Shown here in pieces: positions 1,055-27,553 of a DNA stretch of 30,166 nucleotides. Source of the stretch: a virus; the IMG/VR virus record IMGVR_UViG_3300045999_011062, positions 1 through 30,166 of that record; one strand, written 5' to 3'. The notes under the pieces were generated by a model, which saw nothing but the letters and a program-made list of their open reading frames with translations, ran no database searches and had not been told where the DNA came from. Positions within the stretch are counted from its first letter, which is position 1. Each line of letters opens with the position of its first letter. Position numbers and translations under genes: made by a program.

Positions 1055-3118
1055 TTATTTTTCGTGGGCAATAAATTCGCCCTGCCAATTGGCCGGTAAG
1101 TCCTGCTGTTTCATGAACTCACAGCGTTCGGTCCACATGTGATAATACTTGTCCATTTGTCCATCAAATGATCCCGCAAGTTCTTCACACAGTATAGCGG
1201 CAGCATCAAACTGCTGTTCTCGATACAAAGCATGCATCTTGTTGTGTGTTTCTTTGGCGCGGTAGTATTCTTTGTCATCGCCTTTCACCCGCAACACAGT
1301 GTAGATCAAGTCAGCTACTGTTTTGCCCTTGGGCTGTAGGTTGTCCAACAACAGGTAGAAGAAGTCATTGGCAGTTCGGTTGTATGTTTCAGCACCAATG
1401 ATACACAGCACACCATAGGCCTTGCATCGCGCTTCTAGTCGTGCGGCTGTTGATACCATGTCGCCCAAGATGTCATAACCGTGTCGTTGTGTGGAGCCCA
1501 TTTCGCCTATGAAGCCAATGCCGGTGTTGCAACCCCAACCCATGGCAGCTGGAGGCAAACCTTGTGCTTCCATGGCCTTGGTATACTCATCCACAGCATC
1601 CAGCATTTCAAGACCAACTTTGACAATGGTGTGTGCATGATTGGGATCTTCAATGGGTGCGCCGTGTATGTGCATGGACGCATCGCCCACATACTTTATG
1701 ACCATGCCCCGGTTGTCTAACATGGGTTGTGAAATAGCATCCATGTAGCCGTTCATGTATTTTGTGAGTCCTGCTACATCATCGCCGTAGTGTTCACCGA
1801 TGGGTGTGAATCCACGCAGATCTGAAAACATCACTGATACATCTTTGCGCACACCTTTCTTGATTAGGTCTGGATCTTTCTGTAGCATCTCTACCACTTC
1901 TTTGGAGCAGTAACCTGCAAACTGTTTCTTTATGGCTTGCTTTTGGAGGAACTCTGAGACGAACTTGACACCATAGGCATGCAAAGCGACCAAGATTGTG
2001 CCACCTGCAAGGGCAGTAGCGTCGAATAACCATAAAAAGCCATGATAAGCATACCAGCTACCAACCACGGAGCTACCAACCAACACAACAGTCGTACCCA
2101 GCCCAACATAAGTCCACCTCGTTAAAAATAGCAACAGCAATCCGCCCAGTGTTATTGCAAGAATTTCAGCGCCGTTTGCATAGTCGGGACGTTGAATCAT
2201 GCGGCCTGCAGCCACTGTGTCTACTACAGCGGCTTGCACGAAGTGCGGATAGACTTCTCCTCTAGCAGTTGCGACGGGGTTGTTGAGCCCCCTCGCGGTA
2301 AGTCCGACGATAACAATTCCACCTTGGAAGTCCTTTGGCAAATTAGCCAAGGAATGTTGGGTCGGTCGGGATGACCAATCCACCCAGATTCTACCGAGGT
2401 CGTCTGTTGGAATTTTTCCAAACTTCGGAATTCTAACGGCTTCAATGATTCCGTCGTTGACCCTAACCTGGAAAGAGGGGTCGCCGGCAGCGACTCTAAA
2501 GGTTTCGAGACTGATCGAGGGGTAGAGTCTGTCACCGACTCTAGCGACCATGGGGATTCTGCGCACCACCCCGTCGATTTCAGGCAGAGTGTTAGCAATA
2601 CCAATACCAGCGGCTGTTTCATTGATGCTCCTTACATTGGGTTGAATAGCGGCATAGGGTATGCCAGGTTCTCCTGTGCCTATCACGCTCACACCTGGTC
2701 TAAATGGCTCTACAGTGCTTTTGACCTGATCGTTGGTGGCAGTGTGTGGCAACACCACAGGAGATTCACGCAACACACGTGCCAGTGCCGAGTCTTGACC
2801 TGCACGATCCGCATCGGGCATGAACACGTTGAATACCACTAGACCTGCATTGCGTTGATACAGATCCTGTATGATTTTGGCATATTGACCACGTGGAAAA
2901 GGAAACTGTCCCAGACTTTCTAGAGCAGCATCGTCGATATTGACCACATGAACTTGATCACTGGTTTTTACTTCTGTGCTGGTGATTAGAGTATCAAAGT
3001 AGCGCAGTCTCACTGATTCCACAAATGCAGGATCACTGATTCTAATACCTACTACCACAGCCAATGTGATCACGGCTGTCCATGCACTGGTTATTATTTT
3101 TGTAAATTTTTGTGCCAT
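1055..3118 (-). CDS. CHASE2-domain membrane adenylate cyclase (class III)
   Basis: The protein has 687 residues from ATG 3118; a GTG six codons upstream is possible but lies in the promoter-like box. Numbered from that GTG: one membrane segment (17-33), a CHASE2 extracytoplasmic sensor domain (about 40-315), three membrane segments (321-340, 345-361, 367-388) and a class III cyclase domain (about 430-600). The two metal-binding Asp are D439 (FSDLRGFT) and D485 (YVGDAS). Both adenine-specifying positions, K481 (VIKYVGD) and D555 (YDILGD), indicate ATP rather than GTP. R566 of the transition-state pair is present, but the usual Asn before it is Ser (GDMVSTAARLE), as I recall from some bacterial CHASE2 cyclases. 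The expected product is cAMP. The gene follows the spanin genes, an unusual place for a signalling enzyme. Confidence 0.93.
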   Translation of the reverse strand: MAQKFTKIITSAWTAVITLAVVVGIRISDPAFVESVRLRYFDTLITSTEVKTSDQVHVVNIDDAALESLGQFPFPRGQYAKIIQDLYQRNAGLVVFNVFMPDADRAGQDSALARVLRESPVVLPHTATNDQVKSTVEPFRPGVSVIGTGEPGIPYAAIQPNVRSINETAAGIGIANTLPEIDGVVRRIPMVARVGDRLYPSISLETFRVAAGDPSFQVRVNDGIIEAVRIPKFGKIPTDDLGRIWVDWSSRPTQHSLANLPKDFQGGIVIVGLTARGLNNPVATARGEVYPHFVQAAVVDTVAAGRMIQRPDYANGAEILAITLGGLLLLFLTRWTYVGLGTTVVLVGSSVVGSWYAYHGFLWLFDATALAGGTILVALHAYGVKFVSEFLQKQAIKKQFAGYCSKEVVEMLQKDPDLIKKGVRKDVSVMFSDLRGFTPIGEHYGDDVAGLTKYMNGYMDAISQPMLDNRGMVIKYVGDASMHIHGAPIEDPNHAHTIVKVGLEMLDAVDEYTKAMEAQGLPPAAMGWGCNTGIGFIGEMGSTQRHGYDILGDMVSTAARLEARCKAYGVLCIIGAETYNRTANDFFYLLLDNLQPKGKTVADLIYTVLRVKGDDKEYYRAKETHNKMHALYREQQFDAAAILCEELAGSFDGQMDKYYHMWTERCEFMKQQDLPANWQGEFIAHEK

Positions 3119-3131
3119 CAAATATTTATGG
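3119..3131 (-). promoter_or_regulatory. TAAATA box directly upstream of the cyclase start
   Basis: On the minus strand ATAAATATTTG runs straight into the ATG at 3118. TAAATA occupies 3128-3123, four nt from the start codon, and there is no Shine-Dalgarno sequence between. If it works like a T4 late promoter, the message would be leaderless or nearly so. Confidence 0.5.
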
Positions 3132-4514: not shown

Positions 4515-4560
4515 GGGGGCTCCTAATAATGCGTGTTATTAGGTATTTAGTGATGCCCCC
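4515..4560 (-). promoter_or_regulatory. Late-promoter-like box and RBS-sequestering hairpin upstream of the endolysin
   Basis: TAAATA (4549-4544) is followed by an 8-bp perfect stem (CCTAATAA at 4522-4529 with TTATTAGG at 4536-4543, 6-nt loop). The AGGAG Shine-Dalgarno overlaps the 3' arm on the minus strand. An outer GGGGGC (4515-4520)/GCCCCC (4555-4560) pair encloses the whole element at DNA level. A transcript starting about 6 nt after the box would begin almost at the hairpin. Confidence 0.6.
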
Positions 4561-5379: not shown

Positions 5380-5402
5380 GCAGATATTTAATAAGTATTT
5401 CT
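5380..5402. promoter_or_regulatory. 23-bp divergent promoter-like spacer
   Basis: Only 23 bp separate the starts of two divergent genes. The minus strand has TAAATA (5390-5385) five nt from ATG 5379. The plus strand has the variant TAAGTA (5392-5397) five nt from ATG 5403. No Shine-Dalgarno exists in either direction. The TAAATA half is well supported by other sites; the TAAGTA half is weaker. Confidence 0.4.
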
Positions 5403-6545
5403 ATGAACGTTTTGATTTTAACGCCAGATGCTGTGGGCAGCACTTTGTTGCAAAGACTGCTGACCATTTACATGCAGTTTCATCAATTTGATCAGCCTGT
5501 GATCAATCTACACGAACTCACAAATGGCCTGTCAAAATTTTACAGTTCAGATTTCAATCGAGAAATTATAACTCGCTGGGGCAAATGGGGATATCATCAG
5601 TCTTTGTCTGAGGTCGTTGATATGTTACAGTCTGTGGATCACTACAAAACTGCCAGGCTTGCACAGTATCACATAGTTCAACGACAAGACAGTCTGGCTG
5701 ACCAACTGCCCTTTTATCAATACATTGACGAAAATTTTTATGTGATTGCGTGTCGTAGACAAAACTTGTTTGAACATGCCATGAGCCATGCCATAAACGC
5801 TGTGTCAAAAAAACTCAATGTTTATACAGCACAAGAAAAATTAAACAGTTTTTACGGGCTATATCGCAGCGGGATAGAAATTCAGTCTGAACAAATTTTT
5901 AGTGCACTTGATCGTTATAGAGATTATTTGCAATGGGCCAGTTGTTATTTCACAGTGGGATCTTATTTTTATTACGAACAACACCTGCCCGAAATAGAAA
6001 AATACATTTTGAATTTGCCAGTGTTTGGCGAGCAAAAACAACGAATAACATGGAAGCAGACGTTTGACATGGATCTCAAAGATTGGAATCTATGTCACTA
6101 CTACAAAAGCGACCTAGGCGCATTGGCACTGTCATCAGAAGACACGCTGCTACGACTAGTAAACACAGCAAACAGTTCTCCGGGGACCACAGCAGTTTCT
6201 TTGCTGCAAGATCTGCTGCCGACCACACACAAATCATTTCTGCAAACTCATGGCGAACAATATGCCAAGGTCAATGACTCCATTTATACCATGCAAAAAC
6301 TAGGAATCTTGCCCAGTTCTGTGCCTATCAAAAAACAAACACTGTCGGAAAAATTGCATATTGTAAAAAATCTACAACACTGCGTTGATGCATTCAACCA
6401 CTGGGTAGAACAAAATCCTGGTATAACTGATCCCATCAGCATTGATCAACTCATGAGCCAAGCTCACACCGAGTATCAAGCCCACTGGGATTCTCGGCTT
6501 ATCGCAACTGAGAAACCACTCGTGCAGCTACCCAATCAGCAGTGA
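5403..6545 (+). CDS. Sulfotransferase-like P-loop protein
   Basis: This 380-residue protein starts at ATG 5403. Its N-terminus, MNVLILTPDAVGSTLLQRLL, has the form of the 5'-phosphosulfate-binding loop of PAPS sulfotransferases (beta strand, then a Gly/Ser/Thr turn and a helix). The rest is alpha-rich and aromatic with no other clear motif, so the call rests on that loop. It is divergent from the APS-kinase-like gene, which would supply the sulfate donor in a sulfation pathway. The coding sequence looks A+T-richer than its neighbours by eye. Its 3' end overlaps the convergent SGNH gene by 47 bp. It could instead be another P-loop family with a degenerate loop. Confidence 0.5.
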   Translation: MNVLILTPDAVGSTLLQRLLTIYMQFHQFDQPVINLHELTNGLSKFYSSDFNREIITRWGKWGYHQSLSEVVDMLQSVDHYKTARLAQYHIVQRQDSLADQLPFYQYIDENFYVIACRRQNLFEHAMSHAINAVSKKLNVYTAQEKLNSFYGLYRSGIEIQSEQIFSALDRYRDYLQWASCYFTVGSYFYYEQHLPEIEKYILNLPVFGEQKQRITWKQTFDMDLKDWNLCHYYKSDLGALALSSEDTLLRLVNTANSSPGTTAVSLLQDLLPTTHKSFLQTHGEQYAKVNDSIYTMQKLGILPSSVPIKKQTLSEKLHIVKNLQHCVDAFNHWVEQNPGITDPISIDQLMSQAHTEYQAHWDSRLIATEKPLVQLPNQQ

Positions 6546-8557: not shown

Positions 8558-9526
8558 TTATTTGTTGGGTGTAATTCTACGAGCAATGGGTTGCCAGGTC
8601 TGTTGTAATCGTGCCATGGCAGCTCGAACTCCTGCAGCACTGTGCTCTTCGGGAGTGATATACATCATGTTTTCACGGAATCGAATACCTGCTTCGGCTG
8701 AACGAATTGCAGGCACAAATTGATCATGATACCATGTCTGTATTTCCTGTGGTGTGCCCGGGGGTAGCACAATGTTCCAGCAGCCATGAATACTTAGTCC
8801 TGGCGCTGCCTTGCTCATTAAAGGCACATGCTCAAGACCGGGCAGGCTACGTGTGTCTGCAATGCCGATGAATTTGAGTTTGCCGGCTTGCACATGCGGA
8901 TAGCCCACTGCTACGGGTGTAACACCAAACTCAACATGTCCGCCCATGACATCCAGTAAAGCCTGTGCAGGACCTTTATACATCACTGTTTCCAGTCTGT
9001 CGCCTCCGGGCACACGCAGTTTGTCCACCAGATATTCCACTGCCAGTTTATGGCCGCCGCCACCAATGGCCACTGTGAGTGGGCGCTCTTTGGCGCGAAT
9101 CGCAGCCACAAACTCTTCGGGTGTGTTTATCCGTGAATTGGGATGAGCCCAAAATGCCAAGGGTGATCTGGCAATATTGGCCACAGGTTCCAGATCCATG
9201 GGATTGTAGCGTATCATGTCGCGATACCAAATTTCCGGTGTGACCCAATTTGACTGGCAGGCTGGCACCGAAATAGTGTGTCCATCTCGGGGCACTGTGA
9301 CAAAGTGATTGATGGCAATGTTGCCGTCTGCGCCGGGACGATATTCGGGCACAAACTTTGCGCCGGTCTTTTTCTCCACAATGTCGGCCACAATACGAAA
9401 TGAAATTTCATTTCCTGCACCGGGGCCATTGGGAAATACCACAGTGACTGGTTTGGTGGGCTGCCATGCTGCTGCAATAGCAGGAAGTGTGACAGCAAAG
9501 ACAGCTAATAATTTTTTGATGTTCAT
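8558..9526 (-). CDS. Tripartite tricarboxylate transporter substrate-binding protein (Bug/TctC family)
   Basis: The 322-residue length is typical of the family. A Sec signal peptide (MNIKKLLAVFAVTLPAIAAA) is followed by WQPTKPVTVVFPNGPGAGNE, the family's first strand and ligand loop, then YRPGADGNIAINHF. Such periplasmic proteins bind carboxylates or other small acids for TctAB transporters, or act in signalling. No TctA or TctB membrane gene is in the window, so the phage protein would have to use host components. AAGGGA upstream is a plausible RBS. It heads the coupled run with the sulfotransferase-like, oxygenase and SGNH genes. It is probably acquired from a host; this family is greatly expanded in Betaproteobacteria. 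Confidence 0.9.
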   Translation of the reverse strand: MNIKKLLAVFAVTLPAIAAAWQPTKPVTVVFPNGPGAGNEISFRIVADIVEKKTGAKFVPEYRPGADGNIAINHFVTVPRDGHTISVPACQSNWVTPEIWYRDMIRYNPMDLEPVANIARSPLAFWAHPNSRINTPEEFVAAIRAKERPLTVAIGGGGHKLAVEYLVDKLRVPGGDRLETVMYKGPAQALLDVMGGHVEFGVTPVAVGYPHVQAGKLKFIGIADTRSLPGLEHVPLMSKAAPGLSIHGCWNIVLPPGTPQEIQTWYHDQFVPAIRSAEAGIRFRENMMYITPEEHSAAGVRAAMARLQQTWQPIARRITPNK

Positions 9527-10980: not shown

Positions 10981-11001
10981 AACGAAATTACTTATAGAGT
11001 T

Positions 11002-11545: not shown

Positions 11546-12115
11546 TTAGATAATTCCAGCGGCGCTTTGTATGGCCTTGATAGCATTGTCGCGCTCGTAG
11601 ATTTGTTTGGTGGGTAAGCCAGCAGCCACACGCATTTCGTTCATTTCACTTTCAAACTTTTTGCGATATTCTTTGGGACTCAGTGGAACCACACTGTCAA
11701 ATGTATCACGACTGAACGGATATTCTTGATCATTGTAGTGCATGGTCCAGTCATCTTTGGTGAATTCAGTCAGGGTAGCAAGATCATCCAACAGCATTTC
11801 CACATTGCCACCAGCTGTGCTTCTGCGACGCATTTCCACATACACCAGATAACGATTGGGTTTGATTTCACCTGGGCTCTTGTCAGCGTCCAACACAAAG
11901 TCGTAGCCCTTTTCAAACCAGGCCATGAGATCTTTGGCAGCTTGATTGTCACGCACAAAAAAGCTCAAAGTAATGACGTCGTCATCGTCGCCCATTTTGC
12001 TTGAAAATTCGTCCACGTGAATTGTGGGCTTCATCAAGCCGTCTAGATCTTTGTATTCCAGGCTTTCAAATAGCGGGAAAGGCAGGAGGCTGGGATTGTT
12101 GCTGTTGTTGCTCAT
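11546..12115 (-). CDS. Conserved hypothetical phage protein
   Basis: This 189-residue acidic protein contains PLFESLEYKDLDGLMKPTIH and VITLSFFVRDNQAAKDLMAW near the N-terminus, then YLVYVEMRRRS, a beta-rich core and a helical C-terminus. I kept ATG 12115, although it overlaps the upstream gene by 50 bp, because PLFESLEYKDL looks like part of the fold; ATG 12034 is the alternative. I recall similar proteins in T4-like marine phages without assigned function. It is in an operon with 12066-12644. Confidence 0.65.
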   Translation of the reverse strand: MSNNSNNPSLLPFPLFESLEYKDLDGLMKPTIHVDEFSSKMGDDDDVITLSFFVRDNQAAKDLMAWFEKGYDFVLDADKSPGEIKPNRYLVYVEMRRRSTAGGNVEMLLDDLATLTEFTKDDWTMHYNDQEYPFSRDTFDSVVPLSPKEYRKKFESEMNEMRVAAGLPTKQIYERDNAIKAIQSAAGII

Positions 12116-12644
12116 CTTGCTTGAACTCTTCTTTGTCTAGGTCTTGTTCGTAGGCGTCATCTAGATCGGCCAGGTCAATATCTTGATCTTCCAATTCAAT
12201 GCTGCCTGTGCGAATATCACTCATCAATGCCTTGGGCATGACAATTTCCACTAGCCACACAGGTTTTTCAATGATGCGTGCTGTGTGTGTTCCGGGTGCA
12301 TAGTCCGACGGATCGTTGATCTTGACAGGGATTTTCATCTTTACTTTTTTGTAAAGCACATCGCAATCAAATGGCAGCAGTCGGCGTCCGCCTCTGGGAT
12401 CGGGCATGAGATTTTCAGGCCACATAAATGTGCAGCTGACTTTGTATTTGCCAACATCAGGACCGGCAACTAGCTCACCAATTTCCCAGTTACGAAATGC
12501 ATACAAATCAAGTTCGTCTAGCACACGCTCAAAATCCAGCAGGGTCAGCAAGCTGCCTTCGCTGAGATAAATCCCTTGAATGTTTTTGGCCACCTGCCAG
12601 TAATCGGCGTGGTCTTTGAATAAATCTGCGTCTCTGAGTCCCAT
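12066..12644 (-). CDS. Conserved hypothetical phage protein with acidic, Gln-rich tail
   Basis: The protein has 192 residues: a globular N-terminal part (about 1-145) with MGLRDADLFKDHADYWQVAK and a beta-rich middle (YKVSCTFMWPENLMPDPRGG, then KKVKMKIPVKI). A strongly acidic and then poly-Gln tail (about 150-192) encodes the overlap with the next gene. It has no Shine-Dalgarno. Its ATG is five nt from a TAAATA box, one of the exact leaderless-type spacings. It overlaps its downstream partner by 50 bp. Function unknown. Confidence 0.65.
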   Translation of the reverse strand: MGLRDADLFKDHADYWQVAKNIQGIYLSEGSLLTLLDFERVLDELDLYAFRNWEIGELVAGPDVGKYKVSCTFMWPENLMPDPRGGRRLLPFDCDVLYKKVKMKIPVKINDPSDYAPGTHTARIIEKPVWLVEIVMPKALMSDIRTGSIELEDQDIDLADLDDAYEQDLDKEEFKQDEQQQQQSQPPAFPAI

Positions 12645-12649
12645 GAAAG

Positions 12650-12655
12650 TATTTA
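12650..12655 (-). promoter_or_regulatory. TAAATA box, 5 nt from the start at 12644
   Basis: The minus strand reads TTAACTAAATACTTTC directly before the ATG. There is no Shine-Dalgarno in the gap. A T4-like start site would fall on the A of the ATG. Confidence 0.5.
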
Positions 12656-13353: not shown

Positions 13354-13359
13354 TATTTA
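13354..13359 (-). promoter_or_regulatory. TAAATA box, 4 nt from the start at 13349
   Basis: The minus strand reads GTGTAAATAGTTC directly before the ATG, with no Shine-Dalgarno. It belongs to the close-spaced group of boxes. Confidence 0.45.
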
Positions 13360-13427: not shown

Positions 13428-13433
13428 TAAATA
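13428..13433 (+). promoter_or_regulatory. TAAATA box upstream of the phoH leader ORF
   Basis: TATCTAAATACTC runs directly into an ATG at 13437, three nt after the box, and lies 47 nt upstream of the phoH TTG. It is divergent from the box at 13354-13359. Confidence 0.45.
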
Positions 13434-13436
13434 CTC

Positions 13437-13484
13437 ATGACAGATGGCAACTGTCGTTCTACAAGAAATGGAGCATTAACTTGA
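13437..13484 (+). CDS. 15-residue leader ORF overlapping the phoH start
   Basis: Translates as MTDGNCRSTRNGALT. Its TGA (13482-13484) overlaps the phoH TTG (13481-13483). The ATG is three nt from a TAAATA box and could be initiated without a leader. The phoH Shine-Dalgarno GGAG (13470-13473) lies inside it, so ribosomes finishing the leader would be placed to restart at phoH. Translation is inferred, not shown. Confidence 0.35.
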   Translation: MTDGNCRSTRNGALT

Positions 13485-15093: not shown

Positions 15094-16212
15094 TTATCTT
15101 TTAAAAAATTTAGTCATAATTTCACGGTATTCTTGCTGTGACTGTGCCTTGGGCGCACACAACCCGCAATAGCATCTATTTTTCTTGCATTGTATAACAG
15201 GCATGGTATCAGTGTCAATCCACTGTCGAGTCTGTTTCAACAGAGATTTAGTGTCGGCAAGATTTCCAATAGGTGCAATTTCTCCGCTGAAATTCATTTT
15301 GCAATCTTTGTTGACAAAAATTTCCCCGTTGATCTGCTTGATGTAAAGAAAATAATGATTTACTGAACAATACCAATCTTTGAATTTATTGGCAACAAAA
15401 AATGTCCTTTGTCGACGATTTTGATTTTCACACAGTTGTCTGCCGCCGCAGCATGCTCTTCCTATACTGGCCAAGTCAGTGACGTCAGATTGTGGTAAAA
15501 TGTTTTGGTGCTGACCCTTGCTGGAATATAGTTTGTTGAACCAAATCACCTGTTGCTGCTGATAGTTGAATTCAACATCCTCTTCTGCATGATCTAGCTG
15601 TCGAGACAAATGTTTAATATTGTGTTGATCTAACCAGTCAATCATCTGCTGGCAATCTGCAAATAATTCAGGCTCGGGATGCATTAGCACAACACATTTT
15701 TGTCGACGGCCTGCTGACTGAATTGCTAACAAATTTTCCTTAAACAGACTTTTGTTTTTGTTAGTGTTTTCTACATGATAGCTCAAAGTGAACTCGTCAA
15801 TTAATGGAATCACCTGGCTTAGAATACGCGGACTCACAATAGCATTGGTAGTTGTAGTCACTGTAAGCAACCAACGATCATGATATTGAACACTGCGCTG
15901 TCGGACCTCTTGTAGAATGGTTACAATATCAGGATGATGTAAACTTTCTCCTCCATAGACATTAAGCACCACATGTTTCAATGCTTGAGGCTTTGTTGAC
16001 ATATACAAGTCTGCATATTCAAACATGAAATCTATAGTTGATAAACATTGTGCCAGATCGGGATGGTTTGTAGAATTGTCTCTGCCGCCATAAACTCCCG
16101 ACTCGCAATAGCTACACTGTAGATTGCATTTCATTGTGAGTTCCCAATCCAACAGAAAGGTAATTCTGTTGTTGGGATCAATTACCGGCTCAAGAGATGT
16201 TACTGAGTTCAA
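15094..16212 (-). CDS. Radical SAM enzyme with C-terminal Cys clusters (SPASM-like)
   Basis: This 372-residue protein has C29-x3-C33-x2-C36 (MKCNLQCSYCESG), the radical SAM [4Fe-4S] motif, preceded by the LLDWELT strand. YGGESLHHPD matches the SAM-contacting GGE motif. Further Cys-rich sections are ACCGGRQLC and, at the end, IQCKKNRCYCGLC, plausible auxiliary cluster ligands as in SPASM proteins. Family members modify peptides, proteins or small molecules. No precursor peptide gene is evident nearby. The start is uncertain: TTG 16212 overlaps the clamp-loader stop by 23 bp and lacks a good RBS, but no ATG lies upstream of the Cys motif. The sequence looks A+T-richer than the clamp-loader gene. 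Confidence 0.85.
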   Translation of the reverse strand: MNSVTSLEPVIDPNNRITFLLDWELTMKCNLQCSYCESGVYGGRDNSTNHPDLAQCLSTIDFMFEYADLYMSTKPQALKHVVLNVYGGESLHHPDIVTILQEVRQRSVQYHDRWLLTVTTTTNAIVSPRILSQVIPLIDEFTLSYHVENTNKNKSLFKENLLAIQSAGRRQKCVVLMHPEPELFADCQQMIDWLDQHNIKHLSRQLDHAEEDVEFNYQQQQVIWFNKLYSSKGQHQNILPQSDVTDLASIGRACCGGRQLCENQNRRQRTFFVANKFKDWYCSVNHYFLYIKQINGEIFVNKDCKMNFSGEIAPIGNLADTKSLLKQTRQWIDTDTMPVIQCKKNRCYCGLCAPKAQSQQEYREIMTKFFKR

Positions 16213-17113
16213 TTAGAGTTGCGCTCAAGTTAATTTCTGGATCAGCAACCATGGTGTTGTTGACTAGCCCGTTGCGTATGATCACAATGGCTTGATCTTG
16301 CTGCTCGGCTGTTCGACCAAACAACTCGACGTTGTCATACATCCAGCGAAACACATCTTCTGCTTCTTCGGGACTGGCACTTTGGCACAGTAATTTGCGA
16401 GCCTCAAGCACACGACCATGTTTGAACAAGTCCACACAATCCAGCTTCCAATCCCTGGTGCTACGGTCACTTTCACTTGGTGCCGCTAGGCGACCCGATT
16501 GTGAGTTGAGTTGCACTAGATTCAAACATTTGCGCAGATCCGGATACGTGGCCTTGACATAGCTGTCTAGTGTGTCTAGATCAAACTCCACACCTTCCGT
16601 GACCAACACAGTGGCAGCTCTAGCAGTGAACTCTGTCGAATCAGTTTTGGTGATGTGAAAGCCCTGGCATCGACTGTGCAAGGGCGGAATAATCTTGTTG
16701 GGATAGTTGCAGGTAAGAATGAACCGCACACTCTGACTGTAGTCTTCCATCAAGTTGCGCATGGCCGGTTGCACAGAATTGGGATTCAAATAGTCTGCTT
16801 CGTCAATCAGCACAACTTTAAACCGGCCAAACGGCATGGTCTGACAGAAACTGATCAGCTTGTCTACCCACTCAATCTTGCGACCTTCTTTAGATCCGTT
16901 AGCAAACATAACATCATATTCGTCCACACCCAGCTCATTGATCAACATTTTGGCCAAGGTGGTTTTGCCTGTGCCAGGTGATCCACTTAGGAGCAGATGT
17001 GGAATGCTGCCATCCCGGATCCATTGCTGCACTTGTTCACGTTGAGCATCATCCACAAACACATAACCGTCCACAGTGGTTGGACGATATTTTTCTACCC
17101 AGAGTTCTTTCAT
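16190..17113 (-). CDS. 44: Sliding-clamp loader ATPase, large subunit (T4 gp44-like)
   Basis: The protein has 307 residues (T4 gp44 has 319). The N-terminal LWVEKYRPTTVDGYV box is typical of RFC/gp44. Walker A is GSPGTGKTT (about 44-52), Walker B VVLIDEADYL, sensor 1 ILTCNYPNKI, and LHSRCQ is the SRC motif with the arginine finger. The AAA+ core is followed by a helical collar domain. It loads the phage sliding clamp for the replicative polymerase and for late transcription in T4-type phages. ATG 17113 overlaps the upstream stop (ATGA). No gp62 small subunit follows; a radical SAM gene does instead. Confidence 0.93.
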   Translation of the reverse strand: MKELWVEKYRPTTVDGYVFVDDAQREQVQQWIRDGSIPHLLLSGSPGTGKTTLAKMLINELGVDEYDVMFANGSKEGRKIEWVDKLISFCQTMPFGRFKVVLIDEADYLNPNSVQPAMRNLMEDYSQSVRFILTCNYPNKIIPPLHSRCQGFHITKTDSTEFTARAATVLVTEGVEFDLDTLDSYVKATYPDLRKCLNLVQLNSQSGRLAAPSESDRSTRDWKLDCVDLFKHGRVLEARKLLCQSASPEEAEDVFRWMYDNVELFGRTAEQQDQAIVIIRNGLVNNTMVADPEINLSATLIELSNIS

Positions 17114-18469: not shown

Positions 18470-18850
18470 TTAGCCTGTGACAGCGTCAGAAATGGTATCG
18501 TCGATGCCTGCAGGTTCTTCGTCTGACACCAACAAGATGTCTTTGTGGTCAATGCGTCGAATAGTATGTTTGCCAGCTTCGTCTTCGATTTCAATGCCCC
18601 GTGTCCAGCGACCGTGCGCTACACAAATCCACTGCCCAGGACTGATTTCTTGTTGTTCGGGGCCCACTGCATAGACTTGTCCCCAGCGCGGACGAATTCC
18701 GCCGGCTTTGCCGTTGTCGTTGAGCAAAATGATGCCTGAACTAAGTTGCCTTCCTGAAAAATTCATGTCTGATACAATGACATGATCCTTCAGTGGTTTG
18801 AATTGATGCTTGTTGAAGCGATGCGGTTCAAATGAAAGTTTCTTTTCCAT
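18470..18850 (-). CDS. GroES-like co-chaperonin (gp31-type role)
   Basis: This 126-residue protein has the Cpn10 pattern FKPLKDHVIVSDMNFSGRQL, then SSGIILLND as the mobile-loop region, GQVYAVGPEQQEISPGQWIC and a terminal HKDILLV strand. It is longer than GroES (97) by an N-terminal basic stretch and a C-terminal acidic tail. T4 gp31 and similar phage proteins replace GroES so that host GroEL can fold the large capsid protein; the same use is likely here. It lies second in the operon starting at 19307, two nt after the previous gene. Confidence 0.82.
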   Translation of the reverse strand: MEKKLSFEPHRFNKHQFKPLKDHVIVSDMNFSGRQLSSGIILLNDNGKAGGIRPRWGQVYAVGPEQQEISPGQWICVAHGRWTRGIEIEDEAGKHTIRRIDHKDILLVSDEEPAGIDDTISDAVTG

Positions 18851-24778: not shown

Positions 24779-24800
24779 CTCTGGCTAGTATTTACCAGAG
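24779..24800 (-). promoter_or_regulatory. TAAATA box flanked by an inverted repeat, adhesin operon promoter
   Basis: CTCTGG (24779-24784) and CCAGAG (24795-24800) enclose TAAATA (24794-24789). The repeat has 6-bp arms and a 10-bp gap. ATG 24770 is 18 nt beyond the box with GAGGA between. It could be a binding site or an RNA hairpin. Confidence 0.5.
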
Positions 24801-24821: not shown

Positions 24822-25145
24822 TTAGTAAGGGCTAAAACTGCTACCGCAGCCGCACGTGGTCTGTGCTTGCGGGTTGTCAATAGAGAAACTGGAACCCATT
24901 AAATCTTCTTTATAATTGATGGTTGCACCTTGCAGATACTGCATGCTCATGCTATCCACCACCACAGGAATATCGGTCAAAACTTCAAAATCGTCTTCGT
25001 TGCGGTCTTCGTCGAATGTAAATCCGTAACTCATGCCCGAACATCCACCGCCCTGTACAAAAACTCTCAGCAAGACTTTGGGATTGTTTTCTTCAGCCAA
25101 CAAGTCTTTTATTTTGGTAATAGCGGATTCAGTTAATGTAATCAT
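24822..25145 (-). CDS. A-type iron-sulfur carrier (IscA/ErpA/HesB family)
   Basis: The protein has 107 residues from ATG 25145 (ATGA overlap with the SOD stop; the upstream TTG start is less likely). All three family cysteines are present: C35 in [12 protein letters not shown], and C98/C100 in TTCGCGSSF. Such proteins carry [2Fe-2S] or [4Fe-4S] clusters to apo-enzymes; HesB-like genes are known from cyanophages. It is translationally coupled to the superoxide dismutase gene. It may help build Fe-S enzymes such as the phage radical SAM protein. Confidence 0.92.
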
Positions 25146-25707: not shown

Positions 25708-25713
25708 TATTTA
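25708..25713 (-). promoter_or_regulatory. TAAATA box, 5 nt from the SOD start
   Basis: The minus strand reads AAATAAATATCTAC directly before ATG 25702, nearly identical to TTAAATATCTGC before ATG 5379. No Shine-Dalgarno. A start six nt past the box falls on the A of the ATG. The 157-bp gap 25703-25859 shows nothing else firm. Confidence 0.55.
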
Positions 25714-25859: not shown

Positions 25860-26078
25860 TTATCGTCGCCTGGTGATACGTCCTCGACTGAGATCATATG
25901 GACTGAATTCCACTTCCACAGTGTCACCTAGCAAAATCTTGATGTTGTTTTGACGCATACGTCCCGAAATAACACCAGTGATCAAGGCATCGGTTGTGTC
26001 GAGCTTGACTCTAAACATGGCATTAGGCAGAACATCAACCACAACACCTTCCATCGAAATAGCTTCTTCTTTGGCCAT
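25860..26078 (-). CDS. infA: Translation initiation factor IF-1
   Basis: The protein has 72 residues from ATG 26078, exactly the length of E. coli IF-1. The alignment is clear: [20 protein letters not shown] and MFRVKL at the start, [20 protein letters not shown] as the OB-fold core, and [14 protein letters not shown] at the end (E. coli has TPYDLSKGRIVFR). The residues of the basic face that binds the 30S A-site region are largely kept. IF-1 binds the ribosomal A site during initiation and works with IF-2 and IF-3. IF-1 genes in phages are rare. Its own start lies seven nt from a TAAATA box without a Shine-Dalgarno. It precedes the SOD/IscA unit. Confidence 0.95.
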
Positions 26079-26085
26079 AAGCAAA

Positions 26086-26091
26086 TATTTA
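26086..26091 (-). promoter_or_regulatory. TAAATA box for IF-1, nested in the upstream stop codon
   Basis: The TAA stop of the upstream gene (26091-26089) is the first half of TAAATA. The ATG of IF-1 is seven nt beyond, with no Shine-Dalgarno in TTTGCTT. Confidence 0.5.
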
Positions 26092-26460
26092 GTTGAAATT
26101 CAGTTCTGCAATGATCTTCTGAAGTCGATCAAAGCGGAAACTGCGCCACTCCTGCTTTTCAAGATCAAACACCCGGAGGCTGTGTTCGTCAGGTTGCTTG
26201 CGTTTCTTGGTTTCCAAGAGTTTTTCCACTGGCACATCCTGGGGCTGTTTATCGTCGGGAATCAGTGTCCAATCCAGGGTGCATTTCATTTCTCGCTCGG
26301 TGCCATCGGCCTTGACAAAGCTCACAGTGATTGCGCTTTTTTGTAGCAGACTACGAACCCAGTCTCGAATAATTGCTTTTTGACTGTCGTCAGCTTCTTG
26401 ATATTGTGTGCCGGGTGCTCCTTTGAGCAGTCGCACAGTTTCTTGTTTGGACCAATCCAT
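26089..26460 (-). CDS. Phage protein with C-terminal SH3/Sm-like beta-barrel (WYL_2/DUF2693-like)
   Basis: I choose ATG 26460 (123 residues) because GGAAG precedes it and it lies two nt after the upstream stop. The N-terminal helical part contains [15 protein letters not shown]. The rest forms strands [20 protein letters not shown] and, after a linker with [34 protein letters not shown], typical of small barrel proteins encoded by large marine phages. WYL-like barrels bind nucleic acid or ligands; function is unproven. It is last in the 27780 operon. Confidence 0.6.
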
Positions 26461-26462
26461 GG

Positions 26463-26723
26463 TTACTTCCATTTTAAAGTTAATGCTGTGTAAAGTTTTT
26501 CGCTTATGTCAAAACGACTTCCATCGACGTAATATCGTTGATCTATGTGTTCATACCATTCTTCGTTTGGTTGCTGTCGAATCCACTCCTGTGCAGGCAT
26601 GGTTAATTTTACTGTATACCAGAATTTTCCGTCAACTCGAGCACTGCCTATATTTTGGATATCGGGTGGAGTAAGTTGTTTTACCATGTGATTCCACATA
26701 GAATCAGCTTGTTGTGCGGTCAT
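26463..26723 (-). CDS. Small phage protein ending in LKWK (small-protein family member)
   Basis: The protein has 86 residues from ATG 26723 (ATGA overlap); ATG 26729 is also possible. It contains FWYTVKLTMPAQEWIRQQPN and ends EKLYTALTLKWK. The end matches the next two upstream proteins (AFCLKWS and MFQLKWG), suggesting a shared small fold in which a helix leads to a terminal LKW strand. No known function. Confidence 0.6.
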   Translation of the reverse strand: MTAQQADSMWNHMVKQLTPPDIQNIGSARVDGKFWYTVKLTMPAQEWIRQQPNEEWYEHIDQRYYVDGSRFDISEKLYTALTLKWK

Positions 26724-26935: not shown

Positions 26936-27165
26936 TTTAGTTGAAACATTGTGGCATCTGCACTGGACTCAAAAGCAAATTGTTGATAAGGAAAACTAGC
27001 AATCCAATAGCCGGTCATTGAGCGTTCGCACCAAATGCAAAGACTCGTCCACGATATCTTTTCTTCATATCCGTTACGAGGCTGCATCACAGTCCAACTT
27101 CTCTTCTTTGCTCCGCGAATGGTGCGTGGATTTGTGGCTTTATAAGGAAGATACAAATTACCCAC
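26926..27165 (-). CDS. Small phage protein ending in LKWG (small-protein family member)
   Basis: I choose GTG 27165 (79 residues), which overlaps the upstream stop by eight nt; ATG 27087 would give 53 residues. Core: WTSLCIWCERSMTGYWIASF, ending SSADATMFQLKWG, the same terminal pattern as the two downstream proteins. The start is uncertain because neither candidate has a strong Shine-Dalgarno. Two Cys three residues apart in CIWC could be redox-active or bind metal. Confidence 0.5.
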   Translation of the reverse strand: MGNLYLPYKATNPRTIRGAKKRSWTVMQPRNGYEEKISWTSLCIWCERSMTGYWIASFPYQQFAFESSADATMFQLKWG

Positions 27166-27553
27166 GGCGCATTTTGGAAATAGCCACAGCCTCTTCGTCA
27201 CTGAAAATGGGCACAGAGTTTGACTTATGCATGGTGCCAATACCCAGCATCTTGGTGCCAGTGTATTGTGGCACTGGTTTGCTGGCAGCAATACCTTCGC
27301 CGGTGTTGAGACTGGGAATATGATTGCTGGTAACGCGGCCAACAGGGGCACTGAGTTTGTAAGTCAAAGGCTCAGCAGCCAAGGCTCGCTTGCGTTTACG
27401 GTCTTCGGCCTCAACACCCCACTTGACCTGCAGTTCTCGCCAAGAGGCATCTAGTTCGCGAGCTTTGCGTGCCTCGTCGGCGCTGCGAAACTTGACTTTG
27501 CCCTTGCGGCGACCGTTGAGACTGAGACTGGGATGATGTAGGTGCATGCTCAT
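27158..27553 (-). CDS. Conserved hypothetical phage protein
   Basis: This 131-residue strongly basic protein begins MSMHLHHPSLSLNGRRKGKV. A helical KFRSADEARKARELDASWRE segment and a C-terminal IGTMHKSNSVPIFSDEEAVA motif ending KMRRG follow. I recall the HLHHPSLSLNG and GTMHKSN pieces from several uncultured marine phages. The charge and the small size would fit nucleic-acid or structural binding. It is coupled by ATGA to the upstream gene. Function unknown. Confidence 0.65.
   Translation of the reverse strand: MSMHLHHPSLSLNGRRKGKVKFRSADEARKARELDASWRELQVKWGVEAEDRKRKRALAAEPLTYKLSAPVGRVTSNHIPSLNTGEGIAASKPVPQYTGTKMLGIGTMHKSNSVPIFSDEEAVAISKMRRG

Follow-up and report, generated by a model that had tools for sequence, protein, structure and literature searches.

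Why a phage should carry a translation initiation factor of its own, and whether that factor has anything to do with the way phage messages start, is the question raised by the window analysed here, a whole stretch of 30,166 bases taken from a virus record. The window encodes initiation factor IF-1 shortly behind a TAAATA box, and an earlier note on this DNA had proposed that the factor shifts host ribosomes toward phage messages, many of the neighbouring genes looking leaderless. The features referred to below are collected in Table 1.

Table 1. Genes and promoter-like boxes of the window (boxes before start codons; gaps in nucleotides)
Feature	Position	Strand	Remark
infA, translation initiation factor IF-1, 72 aa	25860..26078	-	ATG at 26078, stop ends at 25860; TIGR00008, PF01176, predicted model
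TAAATA box of IF-1	26086..26091	-	7 nt before ATG
WYL_2 Sm-like protein, directly upstream of IF-1	26089..26472	-	PF10902
131-aa protein	27158..27553	-	no Pfam match
Fe/Mn superoxide dismutase (SOD)-like protein, 186 aa	25142..25702	-	PF02777, PF00081
TAAATA box of SOD	25708..25713	-	5 nt before ATG
ErpA-type Fe-S carrier	24822..25145	-	NF010147, 151.6 bits vs cut-off 117
TAAATA box of tail connector-like gene, leadered class	24789..24794	-	ATG 24770; 18-nt leader holding GAGG
gp44-type clamp loader, placement marker	16190..17113	-	phrog_168, E 5.2e-77
TAAATA box of 228-aa protein	13354..13359	-	4 nt before ATG 13349; TAAGTA also 20 nt before
Virion structural protein, putative leaderless-type late gene	12066..12644	-	phrog_12928
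TAAATA box of virion gene	12650..12655	-	5 nt before ATG 12644
TAAGTA box of 219-aa protein	10989..10994	-	8 nt before ATG 10980
TAAGTA box of 380-aa protein	5392..5397	+	5 nt before ATG 5403
TAAATA box of 263-aa kinase/cytidyltransferase-like protein	5385..5390	-	5 nt before ATG 5379
TAAATA box of endolysin gene, leadered class	4544..4549	-	ATG 4514; 29-nt leader holding AGGAG
TAAATA box of CHASE2-guanylate cyclase protein (687 aa)	3123..3128	-	4 nt before ATG 3118

The IF-1 gene and its phage

The IF-1 protein scores 99.5 bits against the NCBIfam infA equivalog TIGR00008 (cut-off 61.15) and 71.4 bits against PF01176 (E 4.7e-20, cut-off 30.2). An AlphaFold model based on a 26-row alignment (pLDDT 89.4, pTM 0.73) predicts strands E7-17, E21-26, E32-37, E53-59 and E62-71 in a single OB fold as in solved IF-1, with E. 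coli IF1 on the 30S subunit as the best PDB match (9fco_I, TM 0.92 by query length) and a TM of 0.91 against 1hr0_W. The full-length factor with an intact OB fold described in the earlier note was thus confirmed, and as judged from profile scores and the predicted model the window encodes a genuine bacterial-type IF-1.

The window probably represents part of the genome of a T4-type phage allied to the Arenbergviridae (Paride/PA5oct): among 2541 phage records matched, the clamp loaders closest to its own are those of Pseudomonas jumbo phages, Paride for example, at 53.8% identity, and the order of a polymerase fragment, the clamp loader, PhoH on the opposite strand and two virion proteins is common with Paride. 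IF-1 was found in 29 of the 52 records searched, several of the other 23 being short or ending near the place where IF-1 is expected, and no IF-1 was found in G069 (72 kb) or G065 (43 kb). In G057 the gene lies about 53 kb from the clamp loader, its position varying in the more distant members.

Two further genes of the fragment deserve mention. A GroES/gp31-like co-chaperonin lies at 18470-18850 on the minus strand (PF00166, E 1e-4; phrog_931, phrog_3188), and a TctC-type tripartite tricarboxylate transporter receptor (PF03401) at 8558-9526, also minus. TctC-type receptors are abundant in Betaproteobacteria, and the finding of one in a phage may be a weak hint to the host.

TAAATA boxes at two distances from start codons

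As the earlier note had it, IF-1 starts exactly 7 nt behind its TAAATA box without a Shine-Dalgarno (SD) sequence; the TAA stop of the WYL_2 gene forms the first half of this box. TAAATA occurs 15 times in the window and ranks first among hexamers at 4-7 nt from ATG starts (6 seen where 0.11 would be expected). At gaps of 4-8 nt the 6 boxes seen compare with 2000 shuffles of the 30 nt in front of every candidate start, which averaged 0.37 and never exceeded 3. Starts were assigned by eye for 38 window genes: TAAATA or TAAGTA lies 4-8 nt ahead of ATG in 8 of them, 7 show an SD-like core and 23 have neither, ErpA being counted with the last from a start other than ATG 25145. The impression of many leaderless-looking neighbours is thus borne out in part.

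Some of these starts are unusual in themselves. The boxes of the 263-aa and 380-aa proteins diverge with 1 nt between them, two opposed and putatively leaderless-type promoters within about 13 bp (5385-5397). The CHASE2 and adenylate/guanylate cyclase gene (1055-3118, minus strand, 687 aa) has a start-adjacent box, as do two further members of this family in the sampled records. At 13428-13484 a plus-strand TAAATA stands 3 nt before the ATG of a 15-codon frame, the TGA stop of which overlaps the TTG start of phoH (ACTTGA); phoH might conceivably be coupled to a leader peptide translated from a leaderless message.

The same hexamer was followed through related phages by scanning 4-7 nt before the ATG starts of length-selected ORFs, an ORF filter rather than a trained gene finder, in which every ATG within the first 40% of a gene with more than one was taken as a candidate start. 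Records were assigned to one group when their IF-1 falls in the viral branch described below (G006, G012, G013, G014, G019) or, alternatively, when their clamp loader is 64-84% identical to that of the window (G029, G052, G062, G067, G073). G006, G012, G013, G014, G067, Paride and T4 were used whole and G019 over 220 of 303 kb; the other records of the panel are 80-kb or 100-kb samples, and several contigs are fragments.

TAAATA proved to be enriched at this gap in all 11 sampled related records with IF-1 (seen/expected: window 6/0.11, G006 6/0.14, G012 18/0.79, G013 15/0.66, G014 24/1.15, G019 18/1.52, G029 8/0.40, G052 7/0.46, G073 8/0.42, G062 9/0.43, G067 5/0.24). It ranks first among hexamers in the window and G006, and third to seventh in the other nine, with SD-like hexamers on top. 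The start regions of the larger sampled records are thus rich in SD hexamers as well as boxes, suggesting that these phages use both modes. No enrichment was seen in Paride (2, with 3.79 expected), T4 (1, 1.71), Phosso (0, 0.22), Atu_ph07 (1, 0.59) or SCTP-2 (1, 1.41), nor did Syn9, Aeh1, KVP40 and phiM12 have any start-adjacent TAAATA; a weak and unexplained enrichment appeared in XacN1 (2 vs 0.22), Vibrio 2.275 (3 vs 0.44) and LR756511 (3 vs 0.48).

Pooled over the eleven records and G036, the gaps number 11 at 0-3 nt, 136 at 4-7, 20 at 8-15 and 186 at 16-35. TAAATA, and less often TAAGTA, thus stands at two preferred distances from start codons in the sampled relatives, 4-7 nt and about 16-35 nt, the commonest short gap being 5 nt (56 of 136). 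These ORF-verified gaps were used because plain pattern counts on both strands, made without ORF checks and set against a backwards-pattern control, were ambiguous (G012 37 vs 19, G013 28 vs 18, G006 9 vs 1, Paride 72 vs 118, T4 29 vs 53, Phosso 16 vs 24).

A possible role of IF-1 on host ribosomes

The reading that we regard as probable is that of a T4-type phage with an IF-1 old in its lineage, a late promoter placed at two distances, and an IF-1 which is made late and enters the host 30S subunit. Host RNA polymerase with a phage sigma factor of the gp55 type would start late mRNAs about 6 nt past the box; messages of the short-gap class would begin at or next to AUG and be leaderless, and those of the long-gap class would carry a leader, often with an SD. 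Lying behind such a box in the window, IF-1 would be produced late and would occupy the A site of the host 30S subunit, adding to or replacing host IF-1, and late messages of both kinds would be translated while it acts there. A preference of the phage factor for leaderless mRNA is possible and is not needed for this reading.

Several observations count against it. The late sigma factor gp55 (phrog_234) was looked for in 18 records other than the window and found in 9, G013 to G019, Paride and Phosso, which include seven IF-1 carriers of the group (G013-G019); it was not found in G006, G012 and seven others, several of them short. When 20 kb around the clamp loader was scanned in 80 relatives, a start-adjacent TAAATA or TAAGTA turned up once or more in 58 and not at all in 22, these 22 including the stretches of G062 and G067, which are enriched in wider samples.

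The start of IF-1 itself is a third such point. A box precedes it in only 15 of 81 rows, and six of these rows hold one and the same protein, that of the window and its five copies; the gaps are 7-9 nt (TAAGTA at 7 nt in L007, L010, L015, L026 and L049; a 9-nt gap in L053, L054, L056 and L057), and in the window the box overlaps the upstream stop. With such gaps the transcription start site could lie 1-2 nt or more before AUG. An SD-like motif precedes IF-1 in 48 of the 81 rows, one of them with a distant box in addition, and 18 have neither.

Lastly, the protein has changed. When 53 viral rows were compared with 72 bacterial rows, the latter being what was left of the best 80 listed once duplicates and unusable reads were removed, the overlap in residue make-up was below 25% at 15 positions, so the activity of viral IF-1 may differ from that of cellular IF-1. 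Examples, from bacterial to viral, are P50 to L, F/Y45 to N/D and Y70 to R. At window position 31 all 72 bacterial rows have His and the overlap with the viral rows is zero, in a loop that varies in length and where the alignment is less sure. The viral rows lack these near-uniform bacterial residues, which are not required for infA equivalog status and whose absence marks a distinct subgroup.

What IF-1 would do at the 30S subunit can be put in two ways. The first, a serious possibility that stops somewhat short of probable, is that IF-1 is a supply gene, replacing host IF-1 after shut-off or evading a defence that targets IF-1; leaderless messages would be unrelated and promoter placement a separate matter, for example of genome compaction. 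The 48 SD-like starts of IF-1 and the many translation genes reported for huge phages in the excerpted text of PMC7162821 agree with this, and so does HTVC008M, which shows the box placement and has no IF-1 match: 8 boxes were seen in 80 kb sampled (0.75 expected), 7 of them at exactly 5 nt, a count that exceeds composition shuffles only moderately (2.2 on average, with 8 reached as the maximum in 1000). The putatively leaderless-type genes of HTVC008M include those at record positions 6280, 7562, 16007, 18916, 18943 and 49760. By itself, supply leaves the uniform change between viral and bacterial IF-1 unexplained.

The second, which we consider unlikely, is a dedicated late programme in which phage IF-1, together with phage bS21, retunes host ribosomes so that leaderless late mRNAs outcompete the SD mRNAs of the host. 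The joint occurrence of IF-1 and boxes in all 11 related records speaks for it, as do the altered residues at bacteria-uniform sites (His at position 31, with the reservation on alignment given above) and bS21 itself, which occurs in 22 of 31 records, namely 16 of 22 related contigs besides the window and 6 of 8 phage records (Paride, Phosso, Atu_ph07, SCTP-2, Vibrio 2.275 and LR756511), with no match in T4, XacN1 or the window, a fragment. Of the six bS21-positive phage records, four lack an IF-1 match, which gives bS21 the wider distribution of the two here. According to an excerpted review, IF1 and IF2 stimulate leaderless translation in vitro and high levels of IF3 are inhibitory with some mRNAs (PMC9031893); the former allows the idea of steering by IF-1 without showing it.

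Against such a programme, the co-occurrence lies within one related phage group and may reflect about one evolutionary event, the starts of the larger records are also rich in SD hexamers, and more than half of the IF-1 genes themselves have SD-like starts. An exclusive link between IF-1 and leaderless-type boxes is broken by Phosso, which has IF-1 and 0 start-adjacent boxes in 100 kb sampled, and by HTVC008M. The weak box signal noted above falls on records without an IF-1 match (XacN1, Vibrio 2.275) and with IF-1 (LR756511); G036 has boxes (12 vs 0.51) and no IF-1 was seen on its contig, which ends about 10 kb past the clamp loader on the IF-1 side. The proposal of the earlier note accordingly finds partial support: a genuine phage IF-1 and relatives with conserved box-abutting genes stand, and the idea that IF-1 exists to steer ribosomes to phage messages is not supported in the form in which it was put.

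A broader version of the preferred reading, to which we give a low probability, would extend it to a widespread T4-type jumbo group, in which one gp55 core at two distances yields leaderless and SD-led late mRNAs and a diverged IF-1, joined by bS21 in many members, governs their proportions on captured host ribosomes. If true, promoter placement and a virus-supplied initiation factor would jointly select the mRNAs that are translated. Promoter placement appears to be the more unusual part than the IF-1 gene, and a functional link between the two is hypothetical. Conserved late promoters predicted to start at AUG give a concrete context for asking whether a viral IF-1 alters the choice between leaderless and SD messages, and two cultured phages offer natural comparisons, the Pelagibacter phage HTVC008M, grown in HTCC1062 (boxes, no IF-1 match), and Phosso (IF-1, no boxes in the sample).

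Conservation of the start-adjacent box

The short distance is kept at particular genes. For the virion gene, TAAATA or TAAGTA lies 4-8 nt ahead of the start in every one of the 80 orthologs identified on viral contigs; in 55 it is TAAATA at exactly 5 nt. Across 68 distinct upstream sequences of 90 nt, the information content is focused on the box and the start. SOD relatives have a box 4-7 nt before an in-frame start in 72 of 75 cases, across 46-100% identity and against a mean of 1.6 and a maximum of 5 in shuffles; L027, L036 and L038 have no start-adjacent box at SOD. Among 2189 reciprocal ortholog pairs from twelve records, 136 are leaderless-type on both sides, compared with a mean of 8.3 and a maximum of 19 when labels were shuffled within genomes 500 times; 77 of these pairs align Met to Met, with residues 2-12 51% identical. 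This number equals that of the leaderless-type genes by coincidence, and 58 such genes have no leaderless-type partner.

Families scanned from the leaderless class include virion proteins, a baseplate wedge protein, a metallophosphoesterase, a radical SAM protein and SOD, four of ten in one scan giving no match; the leadered families include endolysin, tail fibre, baseplate wedge and virion proteins. In Paride, a box at 16-35 nt was found for 4 of 10 families with any leaderless-type gene and 3 of 56 with neither type (Fisher p 0.008); leaderless-type members make up 7/8, 8/9, 1/8 and 2/4 of those four families, a clear majority in two. Leadered families share such a Paride box in 4 of 20 cases. 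The pattern is weakly consistent with a late promoter common to both, in which a leader has been gained or lost.

A downstream start with its own SD was rejected as the true start of the leaderless-type genes, since an SD-led start lies within 20 codons downstream in 2 of 136, compared with 7 of 423 for internal-ATG controls. At the start itself the SD pattern used was found in 0 of 136, a result partly forced because the box fills the space, and in 72 of 166 leadered genes.

It is improbable that the box near ATG is no promoter at all, and instead an A/U-rich translation signal or a by-product of the stop codons of upstream genes. In favour of this, TAA serves as a stop codon, such a codon overlaps the IF-1 box, and A/U-rich initiation regions occur in some bacteria. 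Yet the stop of the upstream gene accounts for only 13 of 136 leaderless-type boxes, so that the box is no mere upstream stop codon, and the commonest gap of 5 nt sets its TAA out of frame with ATG. The same hexamer recurs 16-35 nt before other genes with the interval of 8-15 nt thinly filled, and the Paride boxes in leaderless-holding families, with the qualifications just given, point the same way. A practical consequence of the pattern would be for gene finding, as SD-less start codons in this group could be called from the box.

Comparison with known systems

Leaderless messages occur in phiKZ. What the excerpted text on its late promoters describes (PMC7598289) resembles the group studied here in that a jumbo-phage late promoter lies at the transcription start, with TATG around the start site, and differs in the multisubunit phage RNA polymerase and the motif. 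AR9 transcripts are often leaderless as well, according to excerpts of PMC5312081, so leaderless phage messages as such are already known.

The closer parallel is T4, whose late promoters are recognised by gp55 with gp33 and gp45, as excerpted from PMC1524935 and PMC2988020, the same sources giving CTAAATA as the late promoter of Aeh1. The T4 box, TATAAATA, spans -13 to -6 (PMC1524935), and the same core is found here before leadered genes; a TAAATA/TATAAATA-like core upstream of late genes is in keeping with a late promoter of the T4 type, the box families including virion, baseplate and endolysin proteins. Given the T4 geometry, a gap of 5 nt would put the first mRNA base on the A of AUG, and short-gap late mRNAs would begin at AUG. 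T4 differs in having 35 boxes at 16-35 nt and, as counted above, only chance numbers at 4-7 nt, whereas the window group adds a class directly at ATG. Leaderless T4-type late promoters, or a phage IF-1 tied to leaderless mRNA, were not found among the open-access literature matches listed, from which primary transcriptome papers on PA5oct and phiKZ are absent.

Phage IF-1 genes are already in print, and the gene of the window is a further example. IF1 and IF3 are among the phage genes of huge phages (Al-Shayeb et al. 2020, PMC7162821), where, as here, IF1 lies in a large phage genome and is proposed to redirect host translation, a use that is only proposed there. In contrast to the present case, the excerpted text ties the absence of SD sequences to S1-like proteins, and it makes no link between IF1 and promoter position or leaderless mRNA. 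The Jug phages of gut Bacteroides (2025 preprint, PMC12363816) have a conserved 'translation initiation factor 1A' in their huge-phage gene set; they are a separate phage group.

Phage bS21, reported from Bacteroidetes phages and HTVC008M in excerpts of PMC9723584 and PMC6375957, is likewise an initiation-related ribosome part supplied by the phage and present in many relatives of the window, and differs in being a ribosomal protein rather than an initiation factor. It is transcribed with the late genes (PMC9723584), and the excerpted 2022 bS21 text has no match for leaderless, promoter or initiation factor.

Ancestry and neighbourhood of IF-1

IF-1 has a viral ancestry and a gene neighbourhood that recurs with it. 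A scan of viral contigs returned 175 stretches encoding an IF-1 relative, of which the best 80 were kept; five other contigs encode exactly this protein, and behind them come relatives with 89, 80 and 79% identity across the matched part. The best of the 80 cellular IF-1 loci listed is 65% identical. Some contigs look like one virus assembled twice, as L053 and L054 with their common coordinates do, and the locus numbers should therefore not be read as numbers of lineages.

In an IF-1 tree of 128 unique rows (162 before duplicates and unusable reads were removed) and 72 columns, which are few, all 53 unique viral-contig rows, the window included, lie beyond one branch with support 97/90, recovered in 98% of 200 bootstrap trees. 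The viral rows thus stand apart from the bacterial ones, and this branch together with the kept neighbourhood indicates that IF-1 is an old gene of the virus lineage. The bacterial side of the branch takes in three rows that come from phage records: Phosso, LR756511 and an Acinetobacter contig. The last, L340 (CAKLQH020000005.1), filed as Acinetobacter phage MD-2021a, carries leuB, leuC, leuD, truA and infA and resembles a bacterial chromosome, so its IF-1 is not to be counted as viral. A search of 50,697 phage records gave 36 matches to the window IF-1 at E up to 0.001, some of them short unannotated fragments labelled Listeria phage, which may be host DNA.

The neighbourhood was compared over the fetched stretches of the best 80 of the 175 loci. 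A SOD relative occurs in 75 of the 80, often right after IF-1, the 131-aa protein in 74, an ErpA-like protein in 64 and the WYL_2 protein in 26. That the window region is host DNA misassembled onto a phage contig, as the MD-2021a record with its IF-1 among leuB, leuC and truA shows can occur, is vanishingly improbable given the five contigs with the same protein and the same neighbours, the recurrent SOD and the place of IF-1 in the viral branch, and the claim of a phage-encoded IF-1 survives this test.

The earlier note had placed IF-1 in an operon with SOD and IscA; SOD stands, and the A-type Fe-S carrier scores as ErpA, reaching 73.9 bits against an IscA cut-off of 150.6. Its start overlaps the stop of SOD (ATGA). 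The SOD-like gene has an ortholog in Paride, Paride_0059, annotated as hypothetical, and its retention near IF-1 together with this ortholog suggests that a protein of the SOD fold may belong to the core of these phages.
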